The notes under the pieces were generated by a model. It worked only from the letters and a program-made list of their open reading frames with translations. It did no database searches and had not been told where the DNA came from. A stretch of DNA of 48,838 bases from Catenovulum agarivorans DS-2 (GTDB taxonomy: Bacteria > Pseudomonadota > Gammaproteobacteria > Enterobacterales > Alteromonadaceae). Position 1 is the stretch's first letter; each line of letters starts with the position of its first letter. The stretch is from assembly GCF_000568405.1 (NCBI RefSeq), contig NZ_ARZY01000033.1, forward strand, positions 1-48,838, in the 5' to 3' direction. The position numbers and the translations under genes were made by a program. Of the stretch, positions 19,420 to 41,730 are shown one piece after another.

Positions 19420-21642
19420 TTATGACGCGCAGAGGTATCGACTGATGGTTAGGATCAGCTTGTTTTTATCTAGAGGCTTACTGACATAGTCTGTCATGCC
19501 TGCTTGCAGGCATTTTTCTTTATCGCCAGACATTGCATTGGCGGTTAAAGCGATAATTGGGAGGTTTTTGTGTTTATCGCCGACTGCGCCTTGGCGAATC
19601 TTTTCTGTGGTTTGGTATCCGTCTAATTCAGGCATTTGGCAATCCATTAAAATTAAGTCGAATGAAACCTCTTCATCTGTTAATTGATTCAGCGCAACTA
19701 AGCCGTTGCTTGCTATGGTAAATTTTAGATCTAATTGTGAGAGTATTTCGGCGATGACCAGTTGGTTAATTTCGTTATCTTCAACCACTAAGATGTGTTG
19801 GAAAGAAAACTTTTGTGGCAATTGGGATTGTTTCGAGCGATTAGCAGAACCATTGGCATTGGGGCTAAAGACATTGTGTAAGCTGTTGAGCAGGTCGCTC
19901 GCCAACAAGGGTTTATTTAAATAAGCACTATATCCAACTTGTTGTGCTTGATGGCGAATTTCTGCTGAAGAAAGAGAAGACGACATGATAAATTGTGTCT
20001 TGTGAGCTGGATATGCTTGTTTAAATTGTCTCAAAAACTCGATGCCGTCCATTTCTGGCATTTGCATGTCTACAATTGCCAAATCAAATACTGTCTGGCT
20101 ATTTCTGACGATTTCTAGCGCAACTATTGGGCTAAGCGCCTGCTGGCTGTTTATTTCCCAGATAGCCAGCTGGTTGCGCAGTATCTCTAGGTTGGTTGCA
20201 TTATCATCAACTAATAGTGCTTTTAACCCTGCCAACCTTTTATGTTGAGCGAGTGTTGGCTCGGTTGAACGAACACTTAAAGGGTATTCGAATTTAAAAC
20301 TACTTCCATAGCCATATTGGCTGGTAAACCATATGTTGCCCCCCATTATTTGACATAACTTTTTACAAATAGTTAGGCCCAAACCCGTACCTCCAAATTT
20401 TCGAGTCGTGGAGGTGTCGGCTTGACTGAATGATTGAAACAAAGTTTCCTTTTGTTCTTCTTTTATCCCAATGCCAGTATCGGTGACAGCGCACTCTATC
20501 CACCATTGTTGTTGCCTTTTAATTTGTTTCACGCTGACAACGATTTCGCCCTTGGCGGTAAATTTTATTGCATTTCCGACTAAATTAAGCAGAATTTGCC
20601 GAAAACGGGTAGGATCGCCAGTAACTAATGGGTGTTTTATGCCAGTTGTATCAACGATAAACTCTAGCTGTTTTTGTGCAGCTTGCGGTTGTAATGCATT
20701 GGCGCTCTCTTCAACAATAGCTTGTAGGTTAAATGCGATCTTTTCTATGTTGAGTTTGTTGGCCTCTATTTTTGAAAAGTCGAGTATGTCGTTAATAATC
20801 GCCAATAAACCTTGAGCTGAACTATAGGCTATATTGAGTTTGTGAGTTTGCTCTTTACTGAGCTCGGTTGTTTTTAATAACTCTAACATGCCTAATATGC
20901 CATTCATCGGCGTGCGAATTTCATGCGACATATTTGCTAAAAACTCGCTTTTTGCTTTGCTGGCAGCAATCGCTTTGTGAGCTAAATCAAGAGCAGATTG
21001 TTCTGCATTAATTAGTCTAGCTTCAAAACGGTTTAGCGCTATGGCGGCCAGTGTCAAATACAATATTAGATTGAGGATGTTGCCAACGAAAAAACCAATG
21101 TTTAACCAAGTTGGATAGTTAAGCGCAATTGGAAAGGTTGACCAGTGAATTACAAAAATAATGCAGGTAGACATCAACAACAAAGACCAGCAGTGGTGTA
21201 GGCTTTTTTTGTTTCGCCAAATCACCATTGCGCTTAAACATAAGCAAGCGCATTGCACACAGGTGAGCAAAACAGCGTTATAAGTTGCAGATAAACTTGC
21301 CTGATAAACTATAAAATAGCCCAAGCAAAAAACACCACAGGTCAGCAACATATGTTTTTTGTATATTTGCCAATTGTCGTTGAAAAATAAGCATAAACCT
21401 ACAACCACAAATGTTTTTTCTGCTGTTAATAAAGCCGCATAGATAACAGGTGCTGAGCCAGTGGGCAAATAATCAGGTAGCAGATAAAGCGTTACTCGCC
21501 CCATCAATGTGCCAATATTGGCGGCCAACCACCATATCGCCCCCGTACGCGCTTTTGCAACCAGTACCACCCAACTAAATAATAACAGCAGCAGAATGTA
21601 CGCGGTTAAGCCAACAATGTGCACAACATCGGCTTGATGCAT
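19420..21642 (-). CDS. Hybrid sensor histidine kinase, 7TM-HisKA-HATPase-REC-REC
   Basis: A 740-residue inner-membrane hybrid kinase. Seven hydrophobic segments occupy about residues 5-205, with no sizeable periplasmic domain, so it probably senses within the membrane or a membrane-associated ligand. HisKA follows, with phospho-acceptor H240 in [11 protein letters not shown]; then HATPase with [10 protein letters not shown] and [10 protein letters not shown]; then two receivers with Asp525 ([13 protein letters not shown]) and Asp667 ([13 protein letters not shown]). No HPt domain is present and no response regulator with an output domain is adjacent, so the phosphorelay partner is elsewhere. 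It starts immediately after the stop of the TonB receptor gene (TAAATG), so the two are translationally coupled. Confidence 0.93.
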
Positions 21643-23895
21643 TTAGAAACCCCAACTCAAAGTTAAGCCATATCGTCGGGGTGGGCTCCATATGCCGATA
21701 ATACCTGGGCCAATCACATAAGAATGGCTGACATATCGGTTATTTGTGAGGTTTTTTCCCCAAAACGAGATCTGCCAATTATTGTTAGCGCTGTGCCAGG
21801 TTACATTCGCATTCCAGTATTTCTGTTGGTCAATAATTGTATTTTGGTTAAGGTAGTCACTAATTTGCTCATCTATAAATTGCCAGCTTATGTGGCCATC
21901 TAAATGACCGCGACCTTCAGATAACGCGAATTGGTAATGCGCGATCACATTGGCAGAGTGCTTGGGTGATTGGCGTAATTCGGAGCCGGTCAGGTCGACT
22001 TCTCCGGCAAAAGCCGCCAGTTTAAATGCTTTTATTTCGCTATCTAGGTAGGCGTAGTGTCCAGACAATTCGAAATGATTATTGATGATCCAATTCGCTT
22101 CAAGCTCCACTCCTGAAATAACAGATTGGTCAATATTTGTTGTTAAAAAGGTACCAAAATCACTGTCTTGCGGCGAAGGGCCAAAGCGGGTAATTTGTAG
22201 GTTTTGATAGTCAGTGTAAAACAGACTGGTATTGAGTCTGAGTTTGTCTGCAATTTGCAGTTTGTGACCCAGTTCATAGCTTGTTGCTGTTTCGGGTTTA
22301 ATTGGTGTCGTTGCGACACTTTCAACGCCTGGGGCGCCTGCAAACCCACCACTCTTAAATCCTTTACTAATGCTGATATAGATCATGCTTGAATCACTTA
22401 GGTATTGCAGCGCTATTTTAGGTGATAAATTGTTCCAGCTATGTTGGCCTGTCGCCTGAAAAGACTTTTGCATAATCGACAGACTTGCATTGCCAACGTC
22501 ACACAAAGGGTTGTTGTTGACTAGGGCATTTTCCTGTTGTCCACAGTTTAAGCTGGTTGACTGAGTTTGTTTGTTGTCTTTGGTGTAACGAATGCCAGTC
22601 ACTAGGTTCCAGCGTTTATCAATCGCCCACTCACTTTGGATATAACTGGCATAACTTTTGGTTGTATTATGTTGGTCGGCAACTTCGTTACCTACTGTTT
22701 GCTGGCCATTGGTGGTTGAGTTATTGTCGAGCTTAAATTGCTCGACACGTTCGGTTTGTTCATTTAGGTAATATAGGCCAACAACATACTTAAAGTTTTC
22801 ACTCGGAGTACTCAACCAACGAAGCTCGGCTGAATGTTGTTGTATATCTTCCAATATATCGTCGTTAACGTCTAAACCTAAGTTGCCTGCAGATAGGTCA
22901 TAATTGCCGCCTAATGGCGCTCCAACACTCGCCATTTCCCAATCGGTAGATGCCTGCCGGTAAGCAAAAATGCTTTGTAGTTGGCCTCCCCAAAGTTTAT
23001 GTTTGTTGGATAGGCTAATGCCCATATTGTCTCGCTTGGAGAAGCCATCAATCGGCGAAGTTGAAACACCCGTTTTTCCTCCAAGATCTTGCCAAACTTG
23101 AATATAGTCGAAGTTGCCATTCTGATAAGGAAAGCGACCCATATCCGCTCTGTCATCTGCGGAATAGTCTGCGGTTAACAGCCAATGACCGTTACTGTTG
23201 TCGAACAATAGTTGCGCTCTTATCGCATGAGAGGTGAGATCTTGCTGCTGGGTATTCAACAATGCGTTGTGCACATAGCCGTCATGAGCACGGTAATTAT
23301 AGCTAACTCTTGCTGCGATGCTGTCCGACAACTCGCGGTTGACCACAGCTTTTAGTTGTTGGTTTTGATAGTTGCCAAATGATGTTTTAATTAAATTGGT
23401 TTGACTAAACTGAGGTAACTCACTGGTTAAGCTGATTGCACCGCCAATGGTATTTCGGCCAAACAAAGTACCTTGTGGACCCCTTAATACCTCAACTCTA
23501 GACAAGTCGAGTAGGTCAAAGTTTATGTTGGCTTGTCGGCCGATGTAGACGCCATCTAAAAATACTGCAACAGAATTGTCCATCCCAGCACCGTCGTCAG
23601 CTGAAATTATCCCTCTTATTGATGTCAAACTTTGCCCAGGTGCAAATTCAGCATAGCTCATACCAGGTGTTGCCAGAGCAATGTCGTATTGGTCGATTAT
23701 GCGCTGTTGCTCTAATGCTTCGAACGAAATAACCGTAGCAGAAACGGGTACTTGTTGTAGGTTTTGTTCAAAGTATTGGCTGGTTACTTTGATAACTTCA
23801 AGCTCTGTCGCTTTAGTGGCAGCGGAGGTGAATAAAGCAGCTAACACAATTGTATAATATGGTCGTAAATTGGTTGAAGCTCGCATAATCTGCAT
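21643..23895 (-). CDS. TonB-dependent outer-membrane receptor
   Basis: A 750-residue outer-membrane active transporter energised by TonB. The signal peptide ends near SAATKA. The plug domain (about 40-155) has QVPVSATVISFEALEQQ, PGQSLTSIRG and RVEVLRGPQGTLFGRNTIGGAI; the rest is a beta-barrel ending in aromatic GLTLSWGF, the usual C-terminal sorting signal. The sequence resembles the large IPR-type group used for siderophores, vitamins or plant-derived compounds, and I cannot name the substrate. It is the third gene of a leftward operon, between two hybrid kinases, 44 bases after the first and abutting the second. This placement suggests uptake and sensing of the same compound. Confidence 0.94.
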   Translation of the reverse strand: MQIMRASTNLRPYYTIVLAALFTSAATKATELEVIKVTSQYFEQNLQQVPVSATVISFEALEQQRIIDQYDIALATPGMSYAEFAPGQSLTSIRGIISADDGAGMDNSVAVFLDGVYIGRQANINFDLLDLSRVEVLRGPQGTLFGRNTIGGAISLTSELPQFSQTNLIKTSFGNYQNQQLKAVVNRELSDSIAARVSYNYRAHDGYVHNALLNTQQQDLTSHAIRAQLLFDNSNGHWLLTADYSADDRADMGRFPYQNGNFDYIQVWQDLGGKTGVSTSPIDGFSKRDNMGISLSNKHKLWGGQLQSIFAYRQASTDWEMASVGAPLGGNYDLSAGNLGLDVNDDILEDIQQHSAELRWLSTPSENFKYVVGLYYLNEQTERVEQFKLDNNSTTNGQQTVGNEVADQHNTTKSYASYIQSEWAIDKRWNLVTGIRYTKDNKQTQSTSLNCGQQENALVNNNPLCDVGNASLSIMQKSFQATGQHSWNNLSPKIALQYLSDSSMIYISISKGFKSGGFAGAPGVESVATTPIKPETATSYELGHKLQIADKLRLNTSLFYTDYQNLQITRFGPSPQDSDFGTFLTTNIDQSVISGVELEANWIINNHFELSGHYAYLDSEIKAFKLAAFAGEVDLTGSELRQSPKHSANVIAHYQFALSEGRGHLDGHISWQFIDEQISDYLNQNTIIDQQKYWNANVTWHSANNNWQISFWGKNLTNNRYVSHSYVIGPGIIGIWSPPRRYGLTLSWGF

Positions 23896-23939: not shown

Positions 23940-26900
23940 CTAGTTTGTCGATTTTTCAAGCAAATTGGCTGATTGATACCAATGTTTAAGAGTTTGCTCT
24001 AACAGTTGTTTATTGATGGGTTTGACCAAATAATCGTCCATGCCGGCTGCCAAACATTTTTCTTTATCACCTTTCATTGCATTGGCTGTCATTGCTATGA
24101 TTGGAATATTTTTATTGTGTTCACCACAGTCGCCTTGCCTGACTCTTTGCGTTGTTTGATAGCCATCTAGATGTGGCATTTGACAGTCCATTAATATTAA
24201 ATCATAGCGCATGCCAGATTGTGCTGAAGCCACTAGTATATCGAGCGCTTCTAAGCCATCATTAGCTGTGTCTAACTGCTCGGTGTAAGGGGCTAACAAG
24301 GTTTGCGCCACTAATTGGTTTATCTCGTTGTCTTCTACTAACAGCACGCGGTTAAATTTGATATTTAGTTGAGTATCTGTAGTAGATAAAGCGTGTTTGT
24401 TTTGAGCATGATGTGTAGATAAGTTGGTAAAGGTGTGGATTAGCTCTAACGTGGTAATTGGATAAGACAACAGTTTTATATTCGGTGCAATCAGTTCTTT
24501 TAGTTCTTCGTTTGAATAGTTGACCGGATGTATAACCAAACAGGCACACTGTTTGGCGTACTGGTCTATTTCGCTTTCAAGGTTCGCGGCGCTAATAGCT
24601 GCGGTCATTAAATCGGTGAATACAATTGCCTCTACATCTTCAAACTTCGCCGTTGCTAGCTCAACTGTGGTGTGCAGGTTATGGGTTACCCGAACCAAAG
24701 GGCGCAGCTGCTTTTCTAGGTAGTGTTTATAAGCGTTTTCTTCACCGATTAAAATAACTGACTGTTGCAGTGATTGTTTTGCCTCTAAAGGAAAGTTTTG
24801 CGCCACTGGTACGGGCCCGCAGTCTATATTTATGCTAAATGTACTGCCTTTGTTATATTCGCTTGTTACAGCAATATCGCCATGTAATAGATTGGCCAGT
24901 TGTTTGCTAATGGCCAAGCCGAGTCCAGTGCCACCAAATTTTCGAGTGGTTGAGGTGTCTACTTGCGTAAACGCGGAAAACAGAGAATCAAATTTGTTTG
25001 AGTCTATGCCAATACCAGTATCTTGCACATTGACTTGCAAGCGTATTTGTTGTGTTGTTGGCAACAACTGGCTATTTGCACTGATAGTGACTGAGCCTTG
25101 TTCAGTAAATTTGATTGCATTGCCAACCAAATTGGTGAGAATTTGTCGGAAACGAGTTGGGTCAGTTAATATTTGAATTTGCTCCAACTCAGTCGTGTCG
25201 ACTAAGAGCGCTAAGCCTTTTTCAAAGGCTTTTATAGAATAGGTCTGGGCAACATTTTCTATTAACTCCTGAATATTGGTTGGCACTGTTTCTATATCTA
25301 TTTTGCCCGCTTCAATTTTGGAAAAGTCTAGTATGTCGTTAATTAACACTAATAAAGAATTGGCACTGTGTTGTGCGAGTTTGGCATAGTGTTGTTGGCG
25401 TGAACTTAAATCTGTGCTTTGGAGAATGTTTAACATCCCAAGCACACCATTCATCGGCGTTCTAATTTCATGCGACATACTGGCTAAAAATGCCGATTTT
25501 AGTCGTGCTGATTCTTGTGCTTTTTCTAACGCTTGTTCTCGTTGTTTAACAGCTGTTTTAAGTTTATTTTCAGCTAGAATTTGATTGGTGACATCATTTT
25601 GTATGCCAAGAAAGTGTGTGAGTTTATTGTGGCTGTCAAAAACAGGTGTAATAGAGAGTTGATTGTAAAACTCTTTACCCTGCTTGGTGTAATTTATAAT
25701 TGTGGTTGAAATAGCTTGCTCAGAACGGATCGCTTGGCTGATTTGTTGAATGATGCGTTTATCAGATTTTTCACCTTGCAAGAACTTGCAGTTTTTACCC
25801 AGCACCTCATTTTTTCCGTAGCCTGTAATATGTTCAAAAGCTGGGTTAACGTAAATAATGGGTTGATGCACAATGCTCGCGTCTACAATTATTATACCTG
25901 AGGGGGCCGTTTCGATTGCGCGGTCGCGTATACGAAGTTCTCGGTCGATACTTTTTTGCAGGGTGATATCTATTCCCACCAAAACAATACCAGCTAATTG
26001 ACCATCAGAGGTTAAGTAGCGCGTTCGATGCCAATGAATGAAAGTTTGCTGATAATTGTTATATTCGTCAGGTAAGTGGTACAAACTTTCGAATTCGTAT
26101 TGGTCACTTTCTAGATTAAATACCGCTGCTCTATGCTCTTTTTCTATGATATTGATTGTCGGTATGCCGTTATCAAGTACTTTATTTTTAAATTCGTCAA
26201 AAGTGTTGTTGTGCAATAAACAACGGCCGTTCAGGTCAAATACCGCTAAAGACTCTGCTATTGAGTTGATAACACTCTGGAATTGTTCTTTAGATACATT
26301 GGTTGCAAATAATTCTTCAAGTAAGCCATCAAATTGATTACGCAATTGCGTCATTTCGTATAATTGTGGGCCTTGGTGTAAGTTAGTTGATGGTGTGTTT
26401 TTTCGGTCGTGGCCTTCAATTGCGTTAACAAACTGGTGCAAAGTTTGTGACGCAAAGTTTGCGGCTAAACTGATGCTATAAGTGGTGGCAATAACGAGCC
26501 CAACAAGTGCAACAATTAATACGATAATGAACATAATAACTTGTTGATAGGCATATTCAGTTTTTTGCAAAATATAGATTGTGCTGAGGTCATCAAATGG
26601 TTGTAGTAAATACTTGTATTCTTCTAGTTGTGCTAGCTTAAATTGGTTGTTTGATTGGGGAATAGAGGCTGATTTAAACAAGATGTTATTTTGTTGGTCG
26701 GTGTAAACTATCTCTGTTTTGAGCAAGTTGATTTCAAGCAAAGGTTGCACTTGTTGCAATGGAATATGCGCATAAATTGCGCCTTCAGGTAGCTGCCCAT
26801 ATCGAATTGGCGCAACGAATATCCAGCCTTGGCTGGTCAGTTGCTGATACGTTTTGCCGTTTTGTAAAACTTTGTCAAACCATTGTGCACGGTTAAGCAA

Positions 26901-27293
26901 TGGACGTGTAGCTTGGTTGTTGGTAATTATTTGCCCTTCAAAATCTAACAGGCTTAACTGACTGTTCTGGATCCCTGCAAATACGAAAGAATTAAATAGC
27001 AATTCAATATACTGCCGCCGTCCTTCGACATCGATTAAACTGTTAATGATTAAGTCATTTTGCGCGAGATTCTCGACTTCAGCTTTCAGAGTATTGGTGG
27101 TTTTTGTCAATATGTGGCTAAATTGTTCGGCTATTTCTTGCTGATGGTCCTGAATTTCGTGTTCAACTAACCTTTGGGCGTAAACAACGACCAAAAAACT
27201 GACAACAACTAACATTGTCAAAACCTTAGGTAGGGTTTTACGGGTTATGTATTGGTGTAGGGTCGGCGTATTATTTTGGTCCATGCTAGTCAA
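23940..27293 (-). CDS. LOV-containing hybrid histidine kinase (Cache-PAS-LOV-HisKA-REC)
   Basis: A 1117-residue membrane hybrid kinase. TM1 is about 20-40, a periplasmic Cache-like region about 45-250, TM2 about 252-275, then a PAS domain (about 335-445) and a second PAS (about 459-570) with a complete LOV signature: GKNCKFLQG with photoactive-type Cys502 and Gln506, then Asn534, Asn544 and Gln565. The spacing equals that of oat phototropin LOV2 (Cys450, Gln454, Asn482, Asn492, Gln513). HisKA has H608 ([11 protein letters not shown]); HATPase has DTGIGIDSNK. The first receiver-like region is degenerate; the last is intact with Asp1036. The start is TTG, eight bases after the binding-protein gene. 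LOV function is inferred from residues only. Confidence 0.92.
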   Translation of the reverse strand: MTSMDQNNTPTLHQYITRKTLPKVLTMLVVVSFLVVVYAQRLVEHEIQDHQQEIAEQFSHILTKTTNTLKAEVENLAQNDLIINSLIDVEGRRQYIELLFNSFVFAGIQNSQLSLLDFEGQIITNNQATRPLLNRAQWFDKVLQNGKTYQQLTSQGWIFVAPIRYGQLPEGAIYAHIPLQQVQPLLEINLLKTEIVYTDQQNNILFKSASIPQSNNQFKLAQLEEYKYLLQPFDDLSTIYILQKTEYAYQQVIMFIIVLIVALVGLVIATTYSISLAANFASQTLHQFVNAIEGHDRKNTPSTNLHQGPQLYEMTQLRNQFDGLLEELFATNVSKEQFQSVINSIAESLAVFDLNGRCLLHNNTFDEFKNKVLDNGIPTINIIEKEHRAAVFNLESDQYEFESLYHLPDEYNNYQQTFIHWHRTRYLTSDGQLAGIVLVGIDITLQKSIDRELRIRDRAIETAPSGIIIVDASIVHQPIIYVNPAFEHITGYGKNEVLGKNCKFLQGEKSDKRIIQQISQAIRSEQAISTTIINYTKQGKEFYNQLSITPVFDSHNKLTHFLGIQNDVTNQILAENKLKTAVKQREQALEKAQESARLKSAFLASMSHEIRTPMNGVLGMLNILQSTDLSSRQQHYAKLAQHSANSLLVLINDILDFSKIEAGKIDIETVPTNIQELIENVAQTYSIKAFEKGLALLVDTTELEQIQILTDPTRFRQILTNLVGNAIKFTEQGSVTISANSQLLPTTQQIRLQVNVQDTGIGIDSNKFDSLFSAFTQVDTSTTRKFGGTGLGLAISKQLANLLHGDIAVTSEYNKGSTFSINIDCGPVPVAQNFPLEAKQSLQQSVILIGEENAYKHYLEKQLRPLVRVTHNLHTTVELATAKFEDVEAIVFTDLMTAAISAANLESEIDQYAKQCACLVIHPVNYSNEELKELIAPNIKLLSYPITTLELIHTFTNLSTHHAQNKHALSTTDTQLNIKFNRVLLVEDNEINQLVAQTLLAPYTEQLDTANDGLEALDILVASAQSGMRYDLILMDCQMPHLDGYQTTQRVRQGDCGEHNKNIPIIAMTANAMKGDKEKCLAAGMDDYLVKPINKQLLEQTLKHWYQSANLLEKSTN

Positions 27294-39222: not shown

Positions 39223-40473
39223 TTGGAACAATACAAGCTGTTAATTGTTGAAGACAGTCGGCCGATATCAACATTGGTTGAATATGTCGCAAAAGAAGCT
39301 GGTTATCAAAGCGTTATTGTTGAAACACTTGCTGAATGCAAACAAGTGTTGGCGCAAGAAGATAACTTTTATCTAGCCTCGGTTGATTACAGCTTACCGG
39401 ATGGTCCAGATGGTGAAGCCATTGATGAAGTTATAAAAAAGGGCATTCCAGCCATTGTAATGACAGGCCATTTAGATAGCGAAATTCGCGATCACATCCT
39501 CAGCAAAGCTGTTTCTGATTATATCCCCAAAGAAAGTTCTGAAGCTTTTGCTTACTTAGCTAAGCAATTTCATCGATTTAAACACAACCCTAATTTTAAG
39601 GTATTGGTGGTCGATGATTCTGCTTCAACTCGCTCCTATGTACGAAATTTGCTCGAGCGTAACCTTTATGAAGTCATTGAAGCTGAAAATGGGCAACAAG
39701 GGTTAGCTTTATTGGCCGCCAACCCTGATACTCAACTCATTATTACCGATTACGAAATGCCTGTTATGAATGGGGTGCGTTTTGTCAGCGAGGTTCGTAA
39801 AACGTATGCAAAAGAATCGGTGTGTATTATCGGACTATCGGGTGGAGGGGCAACTTCGTTGTCAGCTCGTTTTATTCATAACGGTGCCAATGACTTTTTA
39901 CAAAAACCTTTCTGTTTAGAAGAGTTTTATTGTCGAATTTATCAGAGTATTGAACACCTTGAGCATATGGCTAAGCTAAAGCAGCTAGCCGATGTAGATT
40001 CGATGACTGGGTTGTATAACCGTTATGCCTTTTTTAATAAAGCAAACCAGTTAGGCGGCAAAATTGAAAGTAGTCAATACGCAGTTGCAATGATTGATAT
40101 CGATCACTTTAAAAAGATTAATGATGAATTTGGACATGACATGGGTGATGAAGTTATTCAGAACTTAGCACTGTCATTACAACAAGAGTTCGATCGAGAG
40201 ATATTGTGCCGTATGGGAGGCGAAGAGTTTGTGGTTTGGTTTATAGATGGCAGTGCGCAAAGCCATTGTCATTTATTGGATGCTTTTCGTGAGCGGGTCG
40301 GCGAACAGCTAGTGCGCTGTGGGAATTATGAGACGCATTATAGTATCAGTATTGGTTATGCCTGTGCCCCAGACAATATCGAACAAGTGATTCAATATGC
40401 CGACCAAGCCTTATATCAAAGTAAAACCCAAGGAAGAAATCAGCTTACCCTGTATTCAACCCAAGGCGTATAA
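39223..40473 (+). CDS. REC-REC-GGDEF response regulator / diguanylate cyclase, copy 1
   Basis: A 416-residue cytoplasmic regulator with two receivers and a diguanylate cyclase domain that would make c-di-GMP upon phosphorylation. Receiver 1 (about 5-105) has acceptor D55 in ASVDYSLPDG, receiver 2 (about 125-245) has D176 in ITDYEMP with K228. GGDEF domain: DVDSMTGLYNR, IDIDHFKKINDEFGHDMGD and an intact GGEEF at 332-336. The upstream inhibitory-site position reads FDRE, not RxxD, so canonical product inhibition is probably missing. The start is TTG eight bases after the uvrD stop. It is a tandem paralogue of the next gene, 12 bases away. Confidence 0.93.
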   Translation: MEQYKLLIVEDSRPISTLVEYVAKEAGYQSVIVETLAECKQVLAQEDNFYLASVDYSLPDGPDGEAIDEVIKKGIPAIVMTGHLDSEIRDHILSKAVSDYIPKESSEAFAYLAKQFHRFKHNPNFKVLVVDDSASTRSYVRNLLERNLYEVIEAENGQQGLALLAANPDTQLIITDYEMPVMNGVRFVSEVRKTYAKESVCIIGLSGGGATSLSARFIHNGANDFLQKPFCLEEFYCRIYQSIEHLEHMAKLKQLADVDSMTGLYNRYAFFNKANQLGGKIESSQYAVAMIDIDHFKKINDEFGHDMGDEVIQNLALSLQQEFDREILCRMGGEEFVVWFIDGSAQSHCHLLDAFRERVGEQLVRCGNYETHYSISIGYACAPDNIEQVIQYADQALYQSKTQGRNQLTLYSTQGV

Positions 40474-40485
40474 ATAGGATAGTGC

Positions 40486-41730
40486 ATGAATAACCGAGTA
40501 TTGATTGTTGAAGACCACAAAACAACAGCAGAAATTCTGACTAAAATAGCCCAGAAACTTGGTTTTGAAGTCGAGGTAATGTCTAGTTTGGCTGATTTAA
40601 CCGCAAGCCTGATTGAAGACAAAGCATACTTTTGTGCTTGTGTTGATTTTCATTTGCCCGATGCACACCACGGGGAAGCGATTGACCAAACGGTTGCGGC
40701 GAAAATTCCTACTTTTGTGTTAACAGGCCGCCTTGATGAGCAAGTCCGTCAAAAAGTGATGACCAAGGCAGTTGTCGACTTTATTTTAAAAGAAACGGTG
40801 CATTCCTTTGATTATGTTGGAAAATTACTCACTCGACTAAAACGAAATATGCAAGTCAACATATTGGTTGTTGACGACTCATTGTCTGTGCGCAAGTATT
40901 TACGTACTTTGTTAGAGCGACAAAATTTTACCGTAATTGAGGCAGTAGATGGATTAGATGCTCTGGCGCTATTGGCTGAAACCCCACAAATTAAGGTTGT
41001 GATAACCGACTATGAAATGCCAAATATGTCGGGCGTGGAACTTACCTCAAAAATCCGGCGGAAGCACCCGCATGAAAAAATAGCGATAGTTGCGATTTCG
41101 AGCAGCAACAATGCAATGTTAACTGCCCGATTCTTAAAAAATGGGGCGAATGACGCCTTGAATAAACCTTTTGACGCTGAGGAGTTTTACACGCGGATTT
41201 TTCGAAATCTTGAGTATATCGAGCAAATTGAAGAAATTGAATTTGCGGCAAATCACGATTATTTAACTAAAATTAAGAATCGTCGCTGTTTTTTTGAATT
41301 ATCCAACCAAGCGCTTAAAACCGCAAACAAACCTAGTGCATTAGCGTTGCTCGATTTAGACCATTTTAAAGCAATTAACGATACTTACGGGCATGAAGCC
41401 GGTGATATCATTTTGGTTCAGGCCGCTCAGCGTATGGCTGCTCATTTTAAAGATGGTATAGTCGCACGATTAGGTGGCGAAGAGTTTTGTGTATTGTTGC
41501 CTGAAACATCCATTGATGAAGCATTGGGGCGTTTTGAATTTTTGTGCCACCACTTTGATAGTTTTGAGTTTAAAGTGTTAACTCAATCACTCAATGTCAC
41601 AACAAGTATAGGCTTGGTTGAAATTAGCCAACAAGATTTATCGACTGCGTTAAAACAAGCTGACGAAGCGCTATACGCTGCAAAAGAGCATGGCCGTAAT
41701 CAAGTTGTCCAGTATGGTCAATCAATCTAA
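40486..41730 (+). CDS. REC-REC-GGDEF response regulator / diguanylate cyclase, copy 2
   Basis: A 414-residue paralogue of the preceding gene with the same three-domain order. Receiver 1 acceptor is D54 (CVDFHLPDAHHGEAID), receiver 2 acceptor D175 (ITDYEMPNMSG) with NKPF lysine. The GGDEF domain has HDYLTKIKNRR, LLDLDHFKAINDTYGHEAGD and an intact GGEEF at 330-334. The inhibitory-site position reads FKDG, again not RxxD. Both copies are full length and intact, which indicates selection for two enzymes, not a decaying duplicate. No cognate kinase is adjacent; the hybrid kinases at 19-27 kb are too far to link. Confidence 0.93.
   Translation: MNNRVLIVEDHKTTAEILTKIAQKLGFEVEVMSSLADLTASLIEDKAYFCACVDFHLPDAHHGEAIDQTVAAKIPTFVLTGRLDEQVRQKVMTKAVVDFILKETVHSFDYVGKLLTRLKRNMQVNILVVDDSLSVRKYLRTLLERQNFTVIEAVDGLDALALLAETPQIKVVITDYEMPNMSGVELTSKIRRKHPHEKIAIVAISSSNNAMLTARFLKNGANDALNKPFDAEEFYTRIFRNLEYIEQIEEIEFAANHDYLTKIKNRRCFFELSNQALKTANKPSALALLDLDHFKAINDTYGHEAGDIILVQAAQRMAAHFKDGIVARLGGEEFCVLLPETSIDEALGRFEFLCHHFDSFEFKVLTQSLNVTTSIGLVEISQQDLSTALKQADEALYAAKEHGRNQVVQYGQSI

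Follow-up and report, generated by a model that had tools for sequence, protein, structure and literature searches.

A LOV histidine kinase encoded next to a solute-binding protein in Catenovulum agarivorans: a probable two-input sensor

A hybrid histidine kinase gene of Catenovulum agarivorans DS-2 raises the question of whether one membrane protein can combine a blue-light sensor with a receptor for a chemical signal and, if so, where the chemical signal would enter. The gene is located in a stretch of 48,838 nucleotides (contig NZ_ARZY01000033.1, positions 1 to 48,838), which as a whole is referred to here as the window. A preceding reading of the letters alone (the sequence-only reading) had correctly placed the open reading frame (ORF) at 23940-27293, leaving its strand, which is minus, unstated, and had described the product as a kinase with a LOV domain that might integrate light with a nutrient signal. 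The neighbor missed by that reading is the gene of a periplasmic solute-binding protein (SBP), which is separated from the kinase ORF by 8 nt on its upstream side. We consider it probable that the 2 genes form a two-input phosphorelay sensor, in which the Cache domain on the periplasmic side would receive a ligand signal from the SBP, with the LOV domain acting as an in-series blue-light gate.

The complete LOV signature listed in the sequence-only reading, namely GKNCKFLQG with Cys502, followed by Gln506, Asn534, Asn544, and Gln565, was confirmed, the last 4 residues corresponding to the flavin contacts Gln454, Asn482, Asn492, and Gln513 of oat phototropin LOV2. In a phmmer search of the PDB, the top matches were 9vf7 (E = 3e-29) and 6rhg (8.5e-29), and the best 60 of the 150 matches listed are all, by recognized name, what we take to be LOV proteins. 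The comparison of LOV with generic PAS domains gave the same answer: a LOV profile built from 11 relatives has 12 matches in the genome, with the window domain scoring 193.9 bits versus 72.7 for the next one, and among the 10 of these 12 matches that were fetched as loci, the adduct-forming Cys is present only in the window domain. The predicted LOV structure superposes on that of Meiothermus MrLOV (9vf8) with a deviation of 0.5 Å over 103 columns (TM-score of 0.97 by target); DosP, MmoS, and FixL were also among the structure matches, each aligned to the 2 PAS domains jointly. Judged by sequence comparison and structure modeling, the domain is a genuine LOV domain. A generic PAS identity was rejected based on the PDB matches, the gap in profile scores, the superposition, and the Cys found only here, and a chance match of the 5 residues was rejected on the same evidence.

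The 2 phosphate-binding Arg residues (positions 451 and 467) are replaced in the window domain by Lys503 and Ser519, which had raised doubt as to the binding of flavin mononucleotide (FMN). The departures are real, but the doubt is weakened by the presence of the same residues in Cys-bearing relatives. Among 38 distinct Cys-bearing domains (window included), position 451 is occupied by R (28), K (3), N (3), A (2), G (1), or D (1), and position 467 by R (24), S (8), K (3), V (1), Q (1), or A (1). Because Arg is found in only 28 and 24 of the 38 domains, we did not treat the pair as defining LOV here. By comparison, N482 is kept in 38/38 of the same domains and Q454 and N492 in 37/38 each.

The remainder of the protein (Table 1) bears out the description as a hybrid histidine kinase, with the H-box, the HATPase domain, and a receiver containing the Asp and Lys all being present; HisKA, HATPase_c, and 1 receiver exceed the Pfam cut-offs. 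The Pfam scan of the kinase revealed no HPt domain after the receiver; the genome contains 13 HPt matches, 2 of which occupy short, separate reading frames (117 and 129 aa). The degenerate receiver-like region is missing from the kinases of 2 related loci, L017 and L018 (L and G numbers are our identifiers for loci and genomes, respectively). In a C. agarivorans relative (L015), the kinase starts at an ATG (MDQNN) equivalent to codon 4 of the window ORF, so that the residue numbers of the window kinase are probably lower by 3 (Cys502 becoming Cys499). The structure model, which covers residues 1-585 from this ATG and is based on a 29-row alignment, has a mean pLDDT of 77, with values of at least 90 in ten-residue blocks of the LOV part, and 19-residue hydropathy windows over 1.6 span residues 19-45 and 245-281.

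The Cache-like nature proposed for the periplasmic domain is weakly supported by a match to dCache_1 (E = 4.2e-6), which, however, at 26.9 bits is below the Pfam gathering threshold of 45. The same family matches 21 of the 29 members of the sensor alignment (A8) at E 0.1, and a PDB search with the domain gave a single match with an E value under 1, to the sensor 3by9 (E = 0.046). The motif LAxNDLxINSLID...YLPxFF is common to the rows of A8 from Alteromonadaceae, Desulfobacterota, and Alphaproteobacteria; since it is conserved alongside the SBP, it is a candidate SBP contact site. The SBP itself has a signal-peptide-like N-terminus (judged by eye), and its model (mean pLDDT of 93.9) resembles LIV- and aromatic-acid-binding proteins (4q6w, TM-score of 0.87 by target). 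Given that its nearest folds include binders of branched-chain amino acid, aromatic acid, and urea, we do not commit to a ligand, and "nutrient" as a label for the chemical signal is a guess. Because the adjacent SBP is conserved together with the kinase, capture of the ligand is probably the task of the SBP, a distinct protein, and not of the Cache domain alone.

The conservation of the pair was followed in named genomes, where the best 80 of 119 loci found with the SBP alignment were kept. A same-strand ORF of at least 160 aa is located directly downstream of the SBP gene in 79 of the 80 loci, the sole exception being L075, where the contig ends. The downstream partner starts at most 30 nt after the SBP end in 69 of the 79 cases and overlaps the SBP gene by 1 or 4 nt in 40. 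Kinase or GGDEF output is encoded by 75 of the 79 partners: 70 match the core of the window kinase, 4 more (L052, L067, L084, and L089) contain HATPase_c, and the partner in L050 contains GGDEF. In L037, the sensor is split into 2 ORFs beside the SBP and the kinase is in the next ORF, and the partner in L061 is interrupted by the contig end; partners that are split or late-starting (L037, L030, and L101) were counted unaltered. Of the 35 partners that have neither a Cys-type nor a decayed LOV domain, 27 were scanned, revealing HATPase_c in 24, HAMP in 14, dCache_1 in 6, and GGDEF in 1. Taxonomically, the pairing ranges from Alteromonadaceae to Alphaproteobacteria, Desulfobacterota, and Nitrospinia, and the 2 genes frequently overlap. 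SBP frames of about 650-720 aa occur at 4 distant loci (L068:6966-9107, L073:5192-7351, L075:5825-7774, and L079:6951-9023), which suggests an extra N-terminal part or a far-upstream start.

We also searched 246 genomes of the family, some of which are among the named loci as well, with the sensor module, scoring at most 5 candidates per genome. Matches were obtained in 36 genomes, 20 of them full-length (at least 599.8 bits) and 16 partial (at most 207.5 bits, covering only the PAS/LOV part). The SBP gene adjoins the sensor module in all 20 full-length cases, on the same strand and with at most 63 nt between match ends, although this figure partly reflects the choice of profile, because the one used (A6) was built from SBP-adjacent kinases. 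The SBP was matched in 47 of the 246 genomes, and at E 1e-80 the 16 genomes in which the PAS/LOV part alone was matched gave no SBP match. Of the 27 SBP-matching genomes other than those 20, 5 were inspected: G025 encodes a LOV kinase of the clade B described below and G032 a kinase without LOV, and G006, G001, and G020 are taken up further below; the SBP of G050, from another family, is likewise accompanied by a kinase without LOV. Two of the 20 full-length sensor modules, G238:C146:2407-4131 and G123:C13:33465-35192, contain in-frame stops, both beside an SBP frame.

An aligned Cys-bearing LOV domain is present in 36 of the 80 named loci and, additionally, in a separate downstream ORF of L037, whereas 7 loci (L027, L033, L034, L035, L040, L049, and L055) carry a LOV-derived domain without the Cys. 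Eight Vibrio loci (L090-L096 and L102) encode a LOV-related PAS domain with Gly or Ser at the Cys position, 3 others (L044, L050, and L079) a weakly matching PAS domain without Cys, and the remaining named loci gave no match to the LOV profile. The Vibrio domain has an extra residue, yet keeps the LQG motif and Asn482. Among the LOV domains of Pseudoalteromonas, Gln513 is replaced by Leu or Ile in 6 of 8 (L097, L098, L099, L100, L101, and L103), all of which retain the Cys and both Asn, and the other 2 (L080 and L083) keep Gln513. In the 7 Cys-less domains, the flavin contacts have largely gone as well (N482 and Q454 in 0/7, N492 in 3/7, and Q513 in 2/7), whereas the H-box, N-box, and receiver Asp and Lys motifs are kept in 7/7 of these kinases. 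This joint keeping of Cys and flavin contacts suggests that the light chemistry is under selection.

In SBP trees of 87 rows (quick) and 82 rows (careful), the SBPs of LOV kinases form 2 separate clades: clade A (38 rows), which includes the window and comprises Alteromonadaceae, Oleiphilaceae, and a few others, and clade B (9 rows), comprising Pseudoalteromonas and G025. Both trees require 5 changes of LOV state, most simply split into 2 gains and 3 losses, a count that by itself cannot separate gain from loss. Placing all SBPs of LOV kinases in 1 clade was rejected (46 rows; difference in log-likelihood [dlnL] of 184, p = 2e-75), and so was grouping of the 7 SBPs of Cys-less kinases (p = 0.0039). 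In the tree of the LOV domain, based on 127 columns and containing several long branches, a single clade of A and B was not rejected (p = 0.326), 5 of the 7 Cys-less domains fall into 1 clade, and clade A is not monophyletic, its monophyly not being rejected either (p = 0.101). Because the LOV tree thus leaves room for 1 clade and groups 5 of the 7 Cys-less domains, we claim no more than that, as judged from these trees, LOV kinases accompany 2 separate SBP clades and the adduct Cys disappeared on at least 2 occasions.

One alternative concerns only the origin of the domain and is compatible with a two-input sensor: LOV may have been gained once and later exchanged between SBP lineages. We give it a modest chance, considering that the LOV tree does not reject the common clade and that 127 columns resolve little. 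Pointing the other way, besides the strong rejection in the SBP tree, are the 8 clade B kinases without a phmmer match to the window periplasmic domain at E 1e-3, a domain which many non-LOV kinases do match, and the distinct organization of the clade B kinase of L019, with a PAS_3 domain and 2 receivers. Somewhat short of even confidence, we put forward a scenario of a standing class of two-input receptors in marine bacteria, in which an SBP-coupled lineage of kinases twice acquired LOV between the ligand arm and the kinase and so came to detect the coincidence of blue light with a dissolved compound, a lineage which would then have gone blind in some Alteromonas with the ligand arm kept.

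The two-input sensor that we favor is built on what was observed, namely the order of the genes and of the domains, the conserved residues, the joint conservation of the 2 genes, and the pattern of loss. The exported SBP would bind a small ligand of the LIV/HAAT-type class and dock on the Cache domain that the kinase exposes in the periplasm, and the ligand signal would then cross the membrane helices and the first cytoplasmic PAS domain (PAS1) to reach LOV, directly before the dimerization helices of the kinase. If LOV binds flavin with the expected photochemistry, blue light would generate a Cys-FMN adduct and the same linker would shift, so that light would act in series on the ligand signal, as a gate or a tuning input. 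As LOV lies between the ligand arm and the kinase, both signals would share 1 linker, and since many pairs are without LOV and several with a decayed LOV keep the rest, the ligand arm appears to be the core and light an added gate. The phosphorelay path would run from His608 to Asp1036, then to a separate HPt protein, and finally to a regulator. Integration of light with a chemical signal in 1 kinase would be consistent with these observations.

Several observations weigh against such a sensor. Gln513 is usually held to be the residue relaying the light signal, and it is replaced by L or I in 7 of the 38 Cys-bearing domains. As to the pairing, apart from the dependence on profile A6 mentioned above, the module accompanies the SBP in only 20 of the 47 SBP-matching family genomes and is present in only 3 of 8 Catenovulum genomes, and is therefore dispensable; the partners in L063 and L069 contain HAMP (that of L063 also dCache_1) but no output domain was found in them; the SBP homologue of G020 (38% identical; L023:3835-5097) has no kinase gene alongside; and the homologues of 2 Catenovulum genomes, G006 and G001, sit in an ABC operon. 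In these operons (L020:5246-11268 and L021:2877-8768), the SBP homologue (36% identical) is accompanied by genes for a BPD_transp_2 permease, a fused permease/ATPase, and an amidohydrolase, as determined with Pfam for L020 and judged alike from ORF starts for L021, and their content is a possible hint at the ligand class. Furthermore, AgtS and AruS of Pseudomonas aeruginosa illustrate that an SBP gene next to a kinase gene need not encode its functional partner, the adjoining SBPs having failed to bind these kinases according to the accessible part of PMC11113362.

Light sensing could be dispensed with if the LOV domain bound flavin but worked in nature as a redox or oxygen sensor or as a mere structural relay, which we regard as unlikely. 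The departure of Lys503 and Ser519 from the usual Arg pair and the repeated loss of LOV chemistry from kinases that retained their motifs would fit this view, as would 2 known proteins: light affected transcription little in the case of RprR of Ralstonia, which combines Cache and LOV (accessible part of PMC12802281), and the Cys-less LOV-like PAS of RmcA has been linked to phenazines and perhaps to flavin redox (accessible part of PMC8846402). On the other hand, the adduct Cys and the flavin-contact set are retained together in 38 distinct domains, and a purely redox role should have no need of the Cys. That the SBP instead serves transport with a permease encoded elsewhere and never contacts the kinase, the adjacency reflecting co-expression only, is an explanation with a slim chance, favored by the AgtS and AruS precedents, the Catenovulum ABC operons, and the kinase-free homologue of G020 but opposed by the lack of any LivH-type permease match at 1e-5 in the 80 named loci, by the taxonomic breadth of the pairing with its frequent gene overlap, and by the fact that 10 of 11 characterized SBP-kinase couples are neighboring genes (accessible part of PMC11113362). 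A fused permease/ATPase query did match 16 ORFs in 13 of the named loci; the 2 that were scanned (L078 and L031) are other, unrelated ABC ATPases. An assignment of the SBP to an ABC operon was rejected for this lineage on the basis of the 80 loci, the exceptions being the homologues in Catenovulum G006 and G001.

TorT/TorS, LuxP/LuxQ, and AioX are known SBP-coupled kinase systems and resemble the window in that the gene of a periplasmic binding protein is next to that of a membrane sensor kinase. To our knowledge, none of them contains LOV. The window SBP belongs to Peripla_BP_6 and its nearest solved relatives are LivJ-like, with neither TorT nor LuxP being named among its 38 PDB matches. RmcA of P. 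aeruginosa has an SBP-type periplasmic sensor. Brucella LOV-HK, the YtvA-FixL chimera, and the MrLOV kinase of Meiothermus share the LOV fold, the Cys, and the flavin-contact residues with the window domain, and the solved chimeras 4gcz and 8a3u likewise couple LOV to a histidine kinase. Photoreceptor and LOV kinases are described as mostly soluble, which has made their signaling tractable (accessible part of PMC6798134); by contrast, the kinase that contains the window LOV domain spans the membrane, has a periplasmic domain, and is accompanied by a neighboring SBP. RprR (Rsp0254) of Ralstonia pseudosolanacearum is similar in combining a periplasmic Cache domain with a LOV-motif PAS in 1 membrane protein, having 3 PAS-type domains, 1 of them with the LOV motif GRNCRFLH, but its output is GGDEF/EAL rather than a kinase, and the accessible part of the source names no SBP partner (PMC12802281). 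RmcA, whose light-linked LOV-like PAS is without Cys, is a phosphodiesterase, not a kinase (accessible part of PMC8846402). No LOV kinase-SBP pair was named in the titles and abstract openings searched; most subscription journals were outside this coverage, so an earlier description is possible.

Between the LOV kinase and recG, the window encodes a TonB-dependent receptor and a second hybrid kinase (19420-23895). These were rejected as conserved parts of the system, given that recG directly follows the LOV kinase in C. agarivorans L015 and that, at E 1e-100, none of the 7 remaining Catenovulum genomes (of 8) contains a match to the receptor. Farther away, 2 tandem receiver-GGDEF genes of near-equal length are located at 39223-41730. 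Promoter-like sites (19 versus a shuffle mean of 24.0), terminator-like sites (15 versus 11.5), and a viral fold search, in which the top rows were kinases and PAS proteins at low TM-scores, were not used as evidence.

Table 1. Positions in the window of the LOV kinase, its parts, and the neighboring solute-binding protein gene.
Feature	Position	Strand	Details and basis
Orphan periplasmic SBP, Peripla_BP_6, 398 aa	27302..28498	-	Pfam, PDB search, predicted structure
LOV hybrid histidine kinase	23940..27293	-	Counted from TTG, 1117 aa; the ATG at 27284 is the probable start
Periplasmic dCache_1-related domain, residues 41-252	26538..27173	-	Profile match, hydropathy, model; between two hydrophobic helices
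First cytoplasmic PAS (PAS1), about residues 335-450	25944..26291	-	Predicted structure only; without Pfam match
LOV domain, about residues 455-572	25578..25931	-	Pfam, PDB search, alignment, profile scores, structure superposition
Presumed photoactive Cys502 codon (Cys499 from ATG)	25788..25790	-	Alignment
HisKA, residues 599-663, phospho-acceptor His608	25305..25499	-	Pfam, motif
HATPase_c, residues 711-824	24822..25163	-	Pfam
Degenerate receiver-like region, about residues 850-960	24414..24746	-	Inferred by alignment to first receiver of L019; without Pfam match
Receiver, residues 983-1102, Asp1036 and Lys1091	23988..24347	-	Pfam, motif

The locus thus offers a natural case of LOV placed in series with a transmembrane ligand arm, together with Cys-bearing, Cys-less, and LOV-free relatives. 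How 1 kinase weighs 2 signals becomes testable, with light as the switch, and the natural series of losses may tell which residues photosensing truly needs. For the marine Alteromonadales, the pair points to a light-dependent response to a particular dissolved compound.

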